Origin: Clostridia bacterium
GTDB lineage: Bacteria > Bacillota > Clostridia > Oscillospirales > Acutalibacteraceae
Assembly: GCA_017548045.1 (NCBI GenBank)
Contig: JAFYNR010000031.1
Location: 1 to 64,000 of the forward strand
Reading direction: 5' to 3'
Length of the DNA: 64,000 nucleotides
The translations under genes were made by a program, and so were the position numbers. The notes beneath the pieces were generated by a model. It was given only the letters and a program-made list of their open reading frames with translations. It did no database searches and was not told the DNA's origin. Numbering within the stretch: position 1 is the stretch's first letter; each line of letters opens with the position of its first letter. Positions 7,740 through 16,041 of the stretch are shown piece by piece.

Positions 7740-7768
7740 TTGACGAAAAAATAAAAAATTGCTATACT
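7740..7768 (+). promoter_or_regulatory. Promoter of glnA
   Basis: -35 TTGACG (7740-7745) and -10 TATACT (7763-7768) are spaced by 17 bp, 33 bp before the TTG start codon. No obvious GlnR-type inverted repeat was seen overlapping it. Confidence 0.75.
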
Positions 7769-7800
7769 TTAACCGTATATTTATAAAAGGAGTGATTCCC

Positions 7801-9225
7801 TTGGCAAAATCAATTCAGGATATTCTGACAATTATCAAAGAAAACGGCATTAAGATGGTAGACTTCAAGATGGTAGACATCAACGGTCAGTACCGTCACG
7901 TTACCATTCCTGCCGAAAATTTCTCTGAAGATACAATGAAAAGCGGTATCGGCTTTGATGCTTCAAACTACGGTTATGCAGTTGTTGAAAAGAGCGATAT
8001 GGTGTTCATTCCCGACCCCGATACAGCGGTTATCGATCCCTTCTGCTCTATCCCCACACTGTCAATGACGGGTAACGCAATGATTATCGACACACCCGAA
8101 AACAGACCTCTCGCACAGTATCCCAGAAACATTATCAAGGCTGCTGTTGAATATATGAAGAACAGCGGTGTAGCCGATGAAATGAAGATTTTGCCCGAGT
8201 TTGAATTCTATCTTTTTGACGAGGTTAAGTGGAACGTTGAAGGCAAGCACATCGGTGCTACCGTAGATGCCACACAGTCATACTGGAATTCCGGCAACGA
8301 AGGTCTCGGTGTTGTTGTTCCCAAGCAGAAGAATTATCACATTGCAAAGCCTTTTGACACATCCTACGAATGCCGCAGTGAAATGTGTATGCATATGAAG
8401 GATGCAGGTATTGAAATCAACTACCATCATCCCGAGGTTGCCGCATCGGGTCAGTATGAAATTGAGCCTCAGCTTGGCGAGGTTGTTCATATGGCAGATG
8501 CATCAATGATGATTAAATACATCATTCACAACACTGCACTCAAATACGGCAAGACCGCAACGTTTATGCCTAAGCCCATCTACGGTGAAGCAGGCAGCGG
8601 TATGCACGTTCATATGCTTCTTTTCAAGGACGGCGAGCCTGTATTCTCAGATGATAACGGCTACTCACATCTGAGCGAAACAGCCCATTACTTTATGGGC
8701 GGTCTGCTTAAGCATATCGGTGCACTCTGTGCTATTACAAATCCCAGCACCAACTCCTTCAAGCGTCTTATTCCCGGTTTTGAAGCTCCCGTAACCGTTG
8801 GCTACGCAACCTCAAACAGAAGTGCGGTTATCCGTATTCCCGCATATGCCAAGAGCCCCGATAAGCGCAGATTTGAGCTTCGTAACCCCGATGCAACCTG
8901 CAACCCCTATTTCTGCTATGCGGCAATTCTTATGGCAGGTCTTGACGGCGTTAAGAATAAGATTGATCCCCACGCAAACGGTTGGGGTCCCTACGATGTT
9001 AACCTTTATCACCTCAGCGATGAAGAGAAGGCAAAGCTTTCACACCTTCCCGTATCGCTTGAAGAAGCGCTTGATGCACTGGAGGCAGATTACGACTTCC
9101 TTACAGAAGGCGGAGTATTCCCTGTTGAGCTTATCAAAAACTTCATCAGCGCAAAGCGTGACGAGTGCCGCCAGCTTTCGGCTATTCCTCATCCCGCAGA
9201 GTTTGATAAGTACTACAACCTTTAA
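7801..9225 (+). CDS. glnA: Glutamine synthetase, type I
   Basis: This 474-residue enzyme makes glutamine from glutamate, ammonia and ATP. GSI motifs include LPEFEFYLFD and GSGMHVHMLL, the ATP/glutamate loop NPSTNSFKRLIPGFEAP, NRSAVIRIP and RRFELRNPDATCNPYF. A Tyr sits in NLYHLSDEE, at the position of the adenylylated Tyr of GSI-beta enzymes; whether it is modified here is unknown. The start is a TTG at 7801 with AAAGGAG 8 bp upstream. The gene is monocistronic, with its own promoter and terminator. Confidence 0.95.
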   Translation: MAKSIQDILTIIKENGIKMVDFKMVDINGQYRHVTIPAENFSEDTMKSGIGFDASNYGYAVVEKSDMVFIPDPDTAVIDPFCSIPTLSMTGNAMIIDTPENRPLAQYPRNIIKAAVEYMKNSGVADEMKILPEFEFYLFDEVKWNVEGKHIGATVDATQSYWNSGNEGLGVVVPKQKNYHIAKPFDTSYECRSEMCMHMKDAGIEINYHHPEVAASGQYEIEPQLGEVVHMADASMMIKYIIHNTALKYGKTATFMPKPIYGEAGSGMHVHMLLFKDGEPVFSDDNGYSHLSETAHYFMGGLLKHIGALCAITNPSTNSFKRLIPGFEAPVTVGYATSNRSAVIRIPAYAKSPDKRRFELRNPDATCNPYFCYAAILMAGLDGVKNKIDPHANGWGPYDVNLYHLSDEEKAKLSHLPVSLEEALDALEADYDFLTEGGVFPVELIKNFISAKRDECRQLSAIPHPAEFDKYYNL

Positions 9226-11230: not shown

Positions 11231-11263
11231 GCCTACGGATTTAAGTCCGTAGGCAATTTTTTT
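11231..11263. terminator. Intrinsic terminator between GH110-like gene and gatB
   Basis: GCCTACGGA and TCCGTAGGC form a perfect 9-bp stem with a 6-base loop. AATTTTTTT follows on the plus strand and GAAAAAA precedes, so it can serve both converging units. Confidence 0.9.
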
Positions 11264-12671
11264 ATTTATTGAGTTCCGCTTCAAGCATTTCTCTGATAAC
11301 ATCGGGTGAACCGTTGCCTCTGAGTTCCTTCATAACACAGCCGAAAAGTGACTGCATAGCCTTTACCTTGCCGTTCTTGTAATCCTCAACAGCCTTGCCG
11401 TTTTCAGCAATCACTTTGCAAACGGTTTCAAGAATGAAGCTGTTGTCAATCTTTGCGCTAAGTGAGTTTTCTTCACAGTATGCATCAACGTCAACGTCGT
11501 TTTCAAACACTGCCGAAAGAACCTTCTTGCCTGCCGCACGGGTGATTTCTCCGCCTTCAACAAGCTCAATAATTCTTGCAAGCTTTGCAGGCTCAATTTC
11601 AAGGCTTGTGAGTTCAAGACGCTTCATCTGACCCATACATTCGGTGAGAATCCAGCTTGCGGCAGTTTTTGCATTACAGCCCATAGCAACAACCTTGTCA
11701 AAGGTATCGCTGAGTTTTCTGTCAGAAGCGAGAACGCCAGCTTCTTTAGCGGCAATTCCCATTTCTTCATAATGACCTGCTTTTTCTTCTGCGGTTGCAG
11801 GCATACTTGCTCTGATTTCTTCAAGCCATTCGTCGTCAATTACGATGGGCATAAGGTTAGGGTCGGGGAAATAACGGTAATCCGCCGCAGTTTCTTTGTT
11901 ACGCATGGGGAATGTGCGTCTTTTAACGTCATCCCAACGGCGTGTTTCCTGAACGAGCATTTCGGTATGACGCTCAATGGCATCCACGTGACGAACCTTT
12001 TCGAATTCGATAGCATCCTTGATTTCGGAAAGTGAACTCATATTCTTGATTTCCGAACGGACACCAAGCTCGTTTGAGCCTTCGGGACGGACTGAAATGT
12101 TAACGTCGCATCTCATTGCACCTTCTTCACATTCCGAAATGCCTGCAAACTGAAGGCTGGATTTAAGCTTCTTGAGGTAGGTTATAACCTCGTCGGCACT
12201 GCGGAAGTCGGGACGGCTTACGATTTCGATGAGGGGAACACTGGTACGGTTAAAGTCAACAAATGAAGTGTTGGTTGCTTCATCGTGAACAAGCTTGCCC
12301 GCATCCTCCTCAACGTGAATCTGCTTGATGCCGATTTTTCTTTCGCCAAGGTCTACACAGCCGTCAACACAGATGGGGTTGAACCACTGTGTAATCTGGT
12401 ATGCGCAGGGAAGGTCGGGATAATAATAACTCTTTTTATCGAAAGTAGTGTACTGATTGATTTTGCAGTTAAGCATAAAGCCTGCCTTGACTGCAAGCTC
12501 AATGGCGTGCTTGTTTGTAACGGGGAGCATACCGGGCATACCGCTGCAGGCAGGGCATACGCAGTCATTGGGCTCCTTGGGGCTTGAGTGACCGCCGCAG
12601 GAGCAGAAAAGCTTTGAGTCTGTTGAAAGCTCAACGTGAGTTTCAAGACCGATAACAAGTTCGTATTTCAT
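11262..12671 (-). CDS. gatB: Asp/Glu-tRNA amidotransferase subunit GatB
   Basis: This 469-residue kinase-like subunit activates mischarged Asp-tRNA(Asn) or Glu-tRNA(Gln) for transamidation. It is complete: N-terminal YELVIGLETHVEL, the Cys-rich CVCPACSGMPGMLP zinc segment, YYYPDLPCAYQITQ, HVEEDAGKLVHD, and the C-terminal helical and YqeY-like tail (about 295-469). A small variation is NRTSVPLIEIVS, where NRAGVPLIEIVS is usual. Its ribosome binding site GGAGG lies inside the end of the gatA-like gene. It is the last gene of the aspS-gatA-gatB operon. Confidence 0.95.
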   Translation of the reverse strand: MKYELVIGLETHVELSTDSKLFCSCGGHSSPKEPNDCVCPACSGMPGMLPVTNKHAIELAVKAGFMLNCKINQYTTFDKKSYYYPDLPCAYQITQWFNPICVDGCVDLGERKIGIKQIHVEEDAGKLVHDEATNTSFVDFNRTSVPLIEIVSRPDFRSADEVITYLKKLKSSLQFAGISECEEGAMRCDVNISVRPEGSNELGVRSEIKNMSSLSEIKDAIEFEKVRHVDAIERHTEMLVQETRRWDDVKRRTFPMRNKETAADYRYFPDPNLMPIVIDDEWLEEIRASMPATAEEKAGHYEEMGIAAKEAGVLASDRKLSDTFDKVVAMGCNAKTAASWILTECMGQMKRLELTSLEIEPAKLARIIELVEGGEITRAAGKKVLSAVFENDVDVDAYCEENSLSAKIDNSFILETVCKVIAENGKAVEDYKNGKVKAMQSLFGCVMKELRGNGSPDVIREMLEAELNK

Positions 12672-12673
12672 AA

Positions 12674-13873
12674 TTATGCCTCCGTCCTTTCAACGCCGTG
12701 AGCAATGCTCAGAAGAACGCTTTCCTTAAATGAATCTGCAATAAGCTGAACGCCCTTTGCAGAAAGTGCGGGCAAGCCGGTGATTGAGGGGATAGCGGTG
12801 AATACGCTTTCCTCATAAACCTTTTCGAATGCACCGAGAGCATCGTAGGGCTTGTATTCGGTTTTGCCGCATACGGGAGTAAGAATTGCATCGTACGATG
12901 CAAGAATTGCTTTTACCTTATCGCAAACAACTCTGCGGATTCTGAGAGCTTTGTCGTAGCAGTTTTCATACCTGCCCTTTGAAAGCACGTCTGAGCCGTA
13001 AATAACGGTTGCTTTGGTGAGGAAACCGAAGGCTTCGGTTCTGCTCTTAACGTAAAGCTCGTCAATGTTCTTATATTCGGGAGTGCGGTAGCCGTATTTA
13101 ACACCGTCAAATCTTGAAACATTGTTGCAGGTTTCTGCTGCCATAAGAATCTGCCACGCGGTCTGTGCCTGTTCAACGCAGTCAAGTGAAACGGTTTCTA
13201 CCGTTGCGCCCAATGACTTTATTTTTTCTGCATACGCATCGATTTTTGCTTTTGTATCGCCGTCAGCCTTTTCGTAAAGCTCGGCGATAATGCAAACCTT
13301 CATTGATGAAACGTCTTCATCAAGCGAATACTCATATTTTTCCTGAGGAAGGCTTGTGCCGTCCTTGCTGTCGTGACCTGCAATAACACCGAGAATGTCC
13401 TTGATGTCTGCGGCACTTGATGCATATACACCGACCTGCTCGCCCGAAGCGGCGCAGGAGATAATTCCGTAGCGTGAAACAGTGCCGTAGGTAGGCTTGA
13501 TGAAATCAACACCCGAAAGTGCCGCAGCACGTCTGGGTGCGCCGTTAAGGTCAACGCCGATTGCCGCCTTGATTTCACCCTTTGCAACAAGCTCAGCCGC
13601 CGCACCTTTGATGCAGCCGTTTTCCGTTACGGGCTCAAAATATGATGTTTCGCCTGCAAGGTCCAAACCGAACTCGCCGACGTTTGCTTTGCCTGCAATT
13701 ACGTAGCCTGCTTTTTCAAGTCTTTCAACAGCTTCGGCGCTGAAAAGGGGTTTGAAATTTTCAAGCATACGGGAGCCTGCGGTTGCGGGTACGTCTTTTA
13801 CAAGGATTGTATCGTCAACGGCAACCGTGCCTGATTTATTGATTGTATTAATGAAATATCCCACTTTTAACAC
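12674..13873 (-). CDS. gatA: GatA-like subunit lacking the amidase catalytic triad
   Basis: This 399-residue protein aligns with GatA over its length (MLENF, GKANVGEFGL, IKPTYGTVSRYGI, NNVSRFDGVKYGYR), but GatA is normally about 480-490 residues. The N-terminal 60 or so residues are missing. The catalytic Lys of the IKDN motif corresponds to Asp20 (VAVDDTI). The glycine/serine loop GGSSGGSA is replaced by NGCIKGAA (85-92). The nucleophilic Ser of DTGGSIR corresponds to Ala112 (DLNGAPR). Glutamine hydrolysis by the known mechanism should be impossible. The frame is intact, so it appears maintained. The GTG start overlaps the aspS stop region with little ribosome binding site, suggesting translational coupling. 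Confidence 0.85.
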   Translation of the reverse strand: MLKVGYFINTINKSGTVAVDDTILVKDVPATAGSRMLENFKPLFSAEAVERLEKAGYVIAGKANVGEFGLDLAGETSYFEPVTENGCIKGAAAELVAKGEIKAAIGVDLNGAPRRAAALSGVDFIKPTYGTVSRYGIISCAASGEQVGVYASSAADIKDILGVIAGHDSKDGTSLPQEKYEYSLDEDVSSMKVCIIAELYEKADGDTKAKIDAYAEKIKSLGATVETVSLDCVEQAQTAWQILMAAETCNNVSRFDGVKYGYRTPEYKNIDELYVKSRTEAFGFLTKATVIYGSDVLSKGRYENCYDKALRIRRVVCDKVKAILASYDAILTPVCGKTEYKPYDALGAFEKVYEESVFTAIPSITGLPALSAKGVQLIADSFKESVLLSIAHGVERTEA

Positions 13874-13874
13874 C

Positions 13875-15980
13875 TCACTTTACAAGTCTGGGTACCTGCC
13901 AGCTGTCCTCTGTACTCTGAGGAGCGCCGTCAAGGAGTGCCTTACGCTCAAAGGGCTGTTCGCGCTTGTCACTGCGGAGAATGTTTGTCATAGGCATTAC
14001 GTATACCATAGGCTTAATATCTGCAGTGTCAATCTTTTCAAGCTCAGCTTCATCCTTGAGCATATTTTCAAATATCTTTGTCATTGCCTTCTTTTCATCG
14101 GCAGTGAAACTTAACTCGTTCACCTGTTCAAGGCTTTCGAGTCTGTCTTTTTTACTGATGACAGCTTTTGCACCGCTTACGGCAGATGCGAATGAGTTAC
14201 TGTCGCCGCCGTCTGAACCGAGGGTTTCAACGCTTCCTTTGCCCCTGATGCTTACGTTTGCCTCAAAGAGCTGAAGTTCCGTAACTTCACCGGGTGCGCC
14301 GAGCATCTGATCCTGAGCAGTACCGTCAAGGGGGAATGCAATAACGTCACGGATTGTTTCGGTGTCTGCAAGAAGCATAACGATTCTGTCAACACCGGGT
14401 GCCATACCTGCGTGGGGGGGAGCACCAAACTGGAATGCGTTGTAGAGTGCGCTGAATCTTCTTTCAACCTCATCCTCACTATATCCTGCAATTTCAAAGG
14501 CTTTTCTCATAATTTCGGGGCTGTGATTACGAACCGCACCCGAAGCAAGCTCTATACCGTTACAAACAAGGTCGTACTGATATGCAAGGATTTCGGTGGG
14601 ATCCATTGTTTCAAGGGCTTTAAGACCGCCCTGAGGCATTGAGAAGGGATTGTGAGTGAAAATGATTTTATCTGTTGTTTCATCGTGCTCGTACATGGGG
14701 AAGTCAACAACGAAACAGAATTCAAATGAATCGTTCTTTATAAGTTCAAGCTCATTGCCAAGCCATGTGCGTATTACGCCTGCGTTCTTGCTTGCAACTT
14801 CCGCATTTGTATCGCAGATGAAGAATATTGTTTCGCCTTCCTTAACACCGGTAAGTTCAACAATTTCCTTCATTTCATCGGGAGTCATAACCTTGCTGAT
14901 GGGGTCATCCTTGAAGCCATAGTTTGCGGCATCAAGAAGAGTGATATGTGCAAGACCTGCCATCTTTGCCTGCTTTGTAGCAAAAGCGAGGGATTTATCA
15001 AAGAACCATCTTTCGTTCTTGCAGGGAGCAACAATGGCTCTTACGTACTTATTCATAAAGGGCTTGAATTTGACTCTCTTGAACAAGTCGGTTACGTCGC
15101 AGATAACCAGGGGGTTGCGAAGGTCGGGTTTATCTGAGCCGTATTTTGCCATTGACTCTGCATAGGGAATTCTTCTGAAGGGTGAAGCGGTAACCTTCTT
15201 ATCTGAAAATGTTCTGAAAATATTGCTTACAACGTCTTCGCAAACCTGAAGAACTTCTTCCTGAGTTGAAAATGCCATTTCAAAGTCAAGCTGATAGAAT
15301 TCGCCGGGTGAACGATCAGCTCTTGCATCTTCATCTCTGAAGCAGGGAGCAATCTGATAGTATTTATCAAAGCCCGATACCATAAGAAGCTGCTTGAACT
15401 GCTGAGGAGCCTGGGGCAGGGCATAAAATTTGCCGGGATGCTTACGGCTGGGAACAAGGAAGTCTCTTGCGCCTTCGGGTGAAGAAGCAGTGAGAATGGG
15501 TGTCTGGATATCGAGGAAGCCTCTTTCTTCCATAAGTCTTCTCATATAACCGATTACCTTTGAACGGAGGAGAATGTTGTTATGGAGTGCGGGATTTCTC
15601 AGGTCAAGGAATCTGTGCTTAAGACGGATATTCTCATTTGTATCGGTTGAGCCGATTTCAAAGGGAAGGTCGCGGCTGCATACACCGAGAACCTCAAGCT
15701 TATCAACAACAAGCTCAACAAGACCTGTCTCAATTTTGGGGTTAACCGTATTTTCGTCACGCTTGGTAACGATACCTTCAACAGAAAGAACGGTTTCCTT
15801 GCTGACGCCTTTAAGCAGGTTTTCGTTGTGAACAACAACCTGTGTAACGCCTGTTTCATCACGCAAGTCAACAAAAAGAACGCCGCCGTGGTCACGTATA
15901 ACGTCTACCCAGCCTGCGAGCATTACGGTCTGACCGATATGCTGTTCTCTTATTTCGTTGCAACGGTGAGTTCTGTACAT
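13875..15980 (-). CDS. aspS: Aspartyl-tRNA synthetase with C-terminal GatC domain
   Basis: This 701-residue fusion has a complete class IIb AspRS over about residues 1-590: an OB-fold with GWVDVIRDHGGVLFVDLRD, motif 2 FRDEDARADRSPGEFYQLD, a bacterial GAD insertion, and motif 3 GMAPGVDRIVMLL. A linker follows, then a GatC-like domain (about 610-701) with LSFTADEKKAMTKIF, IDTADIKPMVYVMP, NILRSDK and a final SWQVPRLVK, as at GatC ends. His in RDHGG matches the residue associated with non-discriminating AspRS, which charges both tRNA(Asp) and tRNA(Asn). GGAGG lies 9 bp before the ATG. A T-box leader precedes it, and gatA-like and gatB genes follow. Confidence 0.93.
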   Translation of the reverse strand: MYRTHRCNEIREQHIGQTVMLAGWVDVIRDHGGVLFVDLRDETGVTQVVVHNENLLKGVSKETVLSVEGIVTKRDENTVNPKIETGLVELVVDKLEVLGVCSRDLPFEIGSTDTNENIRLKHRFLDLRNPALHNNILLRSKVIGYMRRLMEERGFLDIQTPILTASSPEGARDFLVPSRKHPGKFYALPQAPQQFKQLLMVSGFDKYYQIAPCFRDEDARADRSPGEFYQLDFEMAFSTQEEVLQVCEDVVSNIFRTFSDKKVTASPFRRIPYAESMAKYGSDKPDLRNPLVICDVTDLFKRVKFKPFMNKYVRAIVAPCKNERWFFDKSLAFATKQAKMAGLAHITLLDAANYGFKDDPISKVMTPDEMKEIVELTGVKEGETIFFICDTNAEVASKNAGVIRTWLGNELELIKNDSFEFCFVVDFPMYEHDETTDKIIFTHNPFSMPQGGLKALETMDPTEILAYQYDLVCNGIELASGAVRNHSPEIMRKAFEIAGYSEDEVERRFSALYNAFQFGAPPHAGMAPGVDRIVMLLADTETIRDVIAFPLDGTAQDQMLGAPGEVTELQLFEANVSIRGKGSVETLGSDGGDSNSFASAVSGAKAVISKKDRLESLEQVNELSFTADEKKAMTKIFENMLKDEAELEKIDTADIKPMVYVMPMTNILRSDKREQPFERKALLDGAPQSTEDSWQVPRLVK

Positions 15981-16041
15981 TTTATCATACCTCCGTCTGA
16001 ACACTGCAAAAGCAGAAATGTTTACTGATTGAAAAAATAAA

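Follow-up and report, generated by a model that had tools for sequence, protein, structure and literature searches.

A conserved family of GatA homologues without the glutaminase triad, encoded with AspRS-GatC and GatB: a candidate ammonia-dependent Asp-tRNA(Asn) amidotransferase

What does a GatA homologue do in an intact operon once its glutaminase residues are gone? The question is raised by a gene in a stretch of 64,000 nucleotides (the window, contig JAFYNR010000031.1) from the genome of a Clostridia bacterium. The gene is called gatA* here, GatA* meaning a GatA homologue without the Ser-cisSer-Lys triad. The first-pass annotation had described an open frame of 399 codons, a protein lacking all three catalytic residues with an N-terminus about 60 residues short, and a normal gatB downstream, and had argued that this is not simple decay. 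The frame was indeed found to be uninterrupted. Its product scores 184.9 bits with the Pfam Amidase model (cut-off 27) and 271.4 bits with the NCBIfam gatA model TIGR00132, below the model cut-off of 481.1. Since the relatives begin with ATG or GTG four codons in, the start may be the internal GTG given in Table 1, which is preceded by GAGGTG.

Residues were matched by a HMMER alignment of the window GatA* with solved GatA chains, with Thermotoga maritima GatA (3al0_A) as the reference. The VAIKDN motif with the catalytic Lys is aligned with VAVDDT, and the DTGGS motif with the nucleophilic Ser is aligned with DLNGA. About seven residues are missing just before the segment that replaces the cis-Ser loop. 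Thus, all three replacements proposed in the first-pass annotation were confirmed, and the same alignment contained no alternative Ser-cisSer-Lys triad elsewhere in the protein. The shortening was confirmed as well; GatA* is about 60 residues shorter at the N-terminus than canonical GatA of the same order, and 19 residues lie ahead of the Lys column, compared with 82-86 in five of seven canonical open frames (leader included). According to an excerpt of PMC4027206, R334 and D418 of yeast GatA bind glutamine and E330 supports R334. The corresponding columns, assigned from the alignment, are Thr289, Ser356, and Leu285 in the window GatA*. Because the glutamine-site residues and the triad residues are both replaced, glutamine binding and catalysis should both be lost.

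Table 1. Features of the gatA* operon in the window
Feature	Positions	Strand	Description	Basis
gatB	11262..12671	(-)	469 aa; active-site E10, H12, E121, E122, E149, N210 and zinc C23, C25, C39, C42 intact	
gatA*	12674..13873	(-)	399 aa; probable start GTG at 13864 (396 aa)	family scores and alignment
Ala112 codon	13538..13540	(-)	replaces nucleophilic Ser	
NGCIKGAA (residues 85-92)	13598..13621	(-)	replaces GGSSGGSA loop with cis-Ser	
Asp20 codon	13814..13816	(-)	replaces catalytic Lys; D in 100/103 and E in 3/103 members	
aspS-gatC fusion	13875..16004	(-)	709 aa (relatives suggest start 15980); AspRS with RDHGG and C-terminal GatC	
GatC domain of the fusion (residues 619-708)	13881..14150	(-)		family models

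Is this loss confined to one genome? Among 99 genomes (the window's own, G000, and relatives), homologues with the same changes and 45-95% identity were found in the window's genus, family, and order. The changed motif was then searched for as a DNA pattern in 84,980 species genomes, which gave at least 119 matching stretches, the true number being larger. Among the matches listed, all 119 carry the motif within an open frame; both ends are present in 101 of these frames, of which 98 have at least 350 codons. The record titles of the 119 listed matches all point to MAGs or uncultured bacteria, and 85 of them (counted by eye) name a herbivore host. Of 118 sequences, 103 distinct members remained once those with an identical 380-residue core and frames not longer than 350 aa had been taken out. 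In all 103, the Lys, the cis-Ser, and the glutamine-binding Arg are absent, and the nucleophilic Ser is lost in 76. At the cis-Ser column, L, I, D, or E is found; the nucleophile column contains A (56), S (27), T (12), Y (4), M (3), or F (1). All triad residues are kept in 29 canonical GatA sequences of the same order, a set that leaves out G062 and the reduced GatA forms described below. Thus, the loss of Lys and cis-Ser is shared by the whole family. Part of the invariance at D/E-x-N-G-x-x-R-R-A comes from the search itself, because its pattern selects the changed motif; the Lys and cis-Ser columns fall outside this pattern.

In 12 of the 56 columns conserved within both GatA* and canonical GatA, the residue has been swapped, at several places in the old pocket motifs. 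Near these motifs, the new residues Asp20, Asp71, Asn110, and Arg115 are invariant or nearly so, where canonical GatA has Lys, Gly, Gly, and Gln. Over 77 sequences (the window and 76 of 77 chosen relatives), 54 columns are invariant. The dN/dS values against four relatives are 0.05-0.14 for gatA* and 0.01-0.11 for gatB. GatA* is a conserved family under purifying selection. A decaying pseudogene or an assembly artefact might be suspected in a draft genome of 68 contigs and 85.7% completeness. This explanation was rejected and is barely credible in view of the long frames (at least 350 codons) with start and end present in 98 of the 119 listed stretches, the low dN/dS, and the invariant columns across the family, so the earlier argument against simple decay was borne out.

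The operon has the order AspRS-GatC (fused in the window), gatA*, and gatB. As the first-pass annotation had stated, the window GatB is normal by family models and by alignment. The ten tested GatB residues (active site and zinc) are intact in all 97 rows, that is, 96 stretches longer than 300 residues and the window, as expected of a GatCAB. The GatC domain scores 37.3 bits with PF02686 (cut-off 23) and 46.5 bits with TIGR00135, just below its cut-off of 47.1. Among the 119 listed loci, gatB comes next after gatA* in 102 of 105 with room for it, and 67 of the 71 with enough sequence on the other side have aspS no more than 500 nt upstream. Judged by frame length, 35 of these 67 aspS genes are fused with gatC and 32 are separate. 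No other genes are near-universal neighbours of gatA*. The operon AspRS has the RDHGG motif in all 18 rows read and in 60 of the 67 upstream genes; the other seven did not match the search pattern. The other AspRS copy in those genomes has RDLG in 16 of 18 cases, two being unread. The His/Leu difference is presumably one between relaxed and strict tRNA choice. The operon AspRS is evidently a dedicated second copy, which is fused to GatC in the window.

Is there a working GatA elsewhere in the genome? The window's genome, as far as assembled (85.7%), has one amidase-family gene, one gatB, asnS, glnS, and two aspS genes. The single amidase-family gene is gatA* itself; a second, canonical GatA was looked for in this assembly and none was found. 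The sister genome G021, with 97% completeness, likewise has GatA* as its sole GatA match and otherwise the same gene set. The first-pass annotation had left room for a paralogue beside a working GatA. This option does not fit the window's genome as far as assembled; canonical GatA is also present in three of 21 GatA* genomes (G045, G058, and G070). Since the window's genome has both glnS and asnS, the complex is not required for tRNA-Gln charging and may be dispensable for tRNA-Asn charging.

Neither AsnA nor AsnB over the cut-off was found in the window's genome or in G021. AsnA is present in none of the 21 GatA* genomes, and AsnB over the cut-off in three (G002, G011, and G045). Within the genus, AsnA or AsnB was found in two of 15 GatA* genomes versus 29 of 30 others (Fisher p = 2e-8, a value made too strong by kinship). 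Outside the genus, AsnA was found in none of six GatA* genomes versus 27 of 48 others (p = 0.02, overstated since the genomes are related). The counts behind these comparisons were compiled by hand from the individual gene searches. The complex seems to take the place of asparagine synthetase. The three genomes with AsnB count against such a replacement, as does the lack of AsnA in 20 of 35 canonical GatCAB genomes. No asnS over the cut-off was found in 11 of the 21 GatA* genomes. Within the genus, its absence (6/15 versus 4/29 others, p = 0.07) is not clearly above the background of incompleteness, so that the loss of AsnRS, considered as proof that the complex charges tRNA-Asn, is only suggestive. 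In G044 (95% complete), the complex may be the sole route to Asn-tRNA(Asn), because the only GatB belongs to the GatA* set and no asnS over the cut-off was found.

Does the tRNA agree? The tRNA genes were collected with an Rfam tRNA search and named by ARAGORN (36 of 37 matches in G000, L285 being unnamed; 39 of 41 in G044, L305 being unnamed and one not fetched; G007 was read in part). The tRNA-Asn has G1-C72 in G000 (one gene), G044 (two genes), and G007 (one seen), and no tRNA-Asn with U1-A72 was seen in these three genomes. Bacterial GatCAB is described in an excerpt of PMC9976931 as requiring U1-A72, with G1-C72 and U20a as antideterminants. Thus, G1-C72 counts against an Asp-tRNA(Asn) amidotransferase. 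By eye, U20a is present in the tRNA-Asp of G044 and G007 and absent from the tRNA-Asn. Since U20a marks tRNA-Asp only, the two tRNAs might still be told apart, although GatB would have had to change. Unlike the window's genus, another GatA* species has a tRNA-Asn with U1-A72 (L094:2397-2472, + strand) on the same 8 kb stretch as its gatA*.

With a probability of roughly 0.6, I take the operon to encode an Asp-tRNA(Asn) amidotransferase that would run on free ammonia and replace asparagine synthetase. This reading draws on the family-wide residue loss, the intact GatB, the conserved operon, the purifying selection, and the in-genus complementarity with asparagine synthetase; the Ser kept at the nucleophile column in 27 of 103 members was counted against it. 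The GatC-fused AspRS would aspartylate tRNA-Asn and pass Asp-tRNA(Asn) to GatB, which would activate the Asp side chain with ATP and then amidate it. GatA* would remain a structural partner of GatB and GatC. The best inference is that the ammonia would have to come from a free pool or from another enzyme, and since GatA* would not hydrolyse glutamine, a free pool may be proposed, from which ammonia would reach GatB directly or via the changed GatA* pocket. The product would be the main asparagine source where AsnA and AsnB are missing. The assembly of the complex, the tRNA used, and ammonia as the donor are what I infer. The rumen and hindgut are rich in ammonia, which would fit a free-ammonia donor. 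Carbamoyl-phosphate synthetase I has likewise lost its glutaminase site, retained the domain, and uses free ammonia, yet it is an unrelated protein and not tRNA-dependent. Among tRNA-dependent enzymes, yeast GatFAB can use NH4Cl for amidation, as documented in the excerpt of PMC4027206.

How does this operon compare with known systems? Bacterial GatCAB, solved from Staphylococcus aureus, Aquifex aeolicus, and T. maritima, has in common with it the GatA fold family, a normal GatB, the GatC domain, and partly the gene order aspS-gatC-gatA-gatB. Unlike bacterial GatCAB, the window has no triad, no glutamine-binding residues, about 60 fewer N-terminal residues, and a GatC fused to AspRS. According to an excerpt of PMC4206432, Bdellovibrio, Deinococcus, and Thermus make asparagine on tRNA despite having AsnRS; their GatCAB occurs beside AsnRS and GlnRS without AsnA or AsnB, and Deinococcus and Thermus have a second AspRS, as here. 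No degenerate GatA is reported for them, their second AspRS is of archaeal type, and their tRNA-Asn has U1-A72, whereas the window's AspRS is bacterial-type with a GAD domain and its tRNA-Asn has G1-C72. The NCBIfam family NF009460 (bifunctional AspRS/GatC) likewise combines AspRS and, after it, a GatC domain in a single chain. Its definition includes no dead GatA, and the window fusion does not belong to it, because it scores 443.3 bits against a cut-off of 1379. In archaeal GatDE, also an AdT, an asparaginase-like subunit provides the ammonia. Some gatA* operons have GatD-like genes nearby, although GatE is not GatB and no GatD-like gene was seen in the window. Judged by titles and abstract openings, searches of open-licence papers turned up no description of a natural GatA family lacking the glutaminase residues.

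The GatDE comparison suggests a different donor, in which another glutaminase or asparaginase docks and delivers ammonia, with GatA* as the docking scaffold, as GatD serves archaeal GatE. In 20 of the 119 listed loci, an asparaginase/GatD-like gene is indeed no more than four ORFs away from gatA*, often directly after gatB. None is found in most of the fetched stretches, many of which are short, and nine of the 20 genes have Val for the Thr of TGGTI; a motif scan, which covered the window only, found no GatD-like gene and hence no GatDE-type arrangement there. A docked donor is therefore unlikely. Only slightly less plausible is a complex that amidates or handles a substrate other than Asp-tRNA(Asn), or that acts as a tRNA-binding regulator. 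It was proposed because the tRNA-Asn of G000, G044, and G007 lacks U1-A72, and it would agree with the asnS of the window's genome. However, the tested GatB residues are all kept, the operon AspRS has RDHGG beside an RDLG copy (with the meaning of His and Leu assumed above), and the complex and AsnA/AsnB occur in a complementary manner. The U1-A72 of the L094 species and the lack, by eye, of the tRNA-Asp U20a in tRNA-Asn also argue against another substrate.

GatA* might instead hydrolyse glutamine or another amide via new catalytic residues. The GatA*-specific invariant residues cluster near the old motifs, and the quarter or so of members with Ser at the nucleophile column would agree with this. 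Against it, the Lys and cis-Ser of the triad have disappeared along with the glutamine-site Arg, Glu, and Asp, and the oxyanion loop region is deleted, so new catalysis is improbable, somewhat more so than the two explanations above.

The free-ammonia amidotransferase can be drawn more boldly, in a version that is tentative as a whole and less likely than not. This would be an ammonia-only tRNA-dependent amidotransferase, with the GatA* pocket as an ammonium entry marked by the four new residues, a GatB accepting G1-C72 tRNA-Asn, and AspRS-GatC as a built-in transamidosome, by which gut Clostridia would make asparagine on tRNA from environmental ammonia. The GatA glutaminase is treated as half of GatCAB, and the GatA* lineage separates the structural role of GatA from the catalytic one. 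GatA* is thus a natural candidate for an ammonia-dependent amidotransferase in a wide lineage of uncultured gut bacteria, and for an asparagine route that annotation would take for auxotrophy or for an ordinary GatCAB. The U1-A72 rule for bacterial GatCAB can be tested directly on the G1-C72 tRNA-Asn.

Are other genes commonly linked to the operon? In a set of 125 loci, in which some contigs are duplicated, the asparaginase/GatD-like gene is the next commonest neighbour after aspS and gatB, and it occurs in only 21 of them; a common ammonia-supplying neighbour was thus rejected. The nine genes with Val at the Thr of TGGTI, which I take to be the catalytic residue of asparaginase/GatD-like proteins, are in L077, L090, L097, L123, L127, L129, L133, L135, and L159. 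The change may have inactivated them, which would place dead asparaginases next to a dead glutaminase. An AlaX-like alanyl-tRNA editing gene lies at +2 or +3 after the operon, on the same strand, in 12 of the 119 listed loci (L064, L070, L090, L097, L115, L123, L127, L129, L138, L148, L161, and L179); the domains of two of these were checked only via a copy in L196. A glutamine-synthetase-like gene, recognized by eye, lies near the operon at 7759-9225 (+) of the window. It is probably unlinked to gatA*, because such a gene is near only three of 125 gatA* loci.

Reduced GatA forms were also found in other AspRS/GatC/GatA/GatB clusters. In G051 (447 aa) and G056 (445 aa), the Lys and the loop are lost and the Ser is kept. 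In G088, G057, and G065, GatA has shrunk to 323, 316, and 302 aa without the triad (L212:1990-2958, L211:2272-3219, and L213:1860-2765), and no other full GatA match was found in each of these genomes. The AspRS of all five clusters has RDHGG. G035, a duplicate of L031, was left out of this comparison, and G062 was rejected as a reduced form; it looks short, yet its triad is intact. In an unrooted tree without two truncated rows (G086 and the canonical G070), canonical GatA and GatA* are each set apart by a well-supported branch (100/98 and 100/99). A single stepwise loss leading to the reduced forms would be compatible with this tree, whose long branches call for caution beyond that. A 412-aa protein encoded at L247:838-2073 has a start resembling GatC and a remainder resembling a degenerate GatA-like amidase (matched by Pfam Amidase only). 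It may be a GatC-GatA fusion, located away from the gatB gene of that genome.
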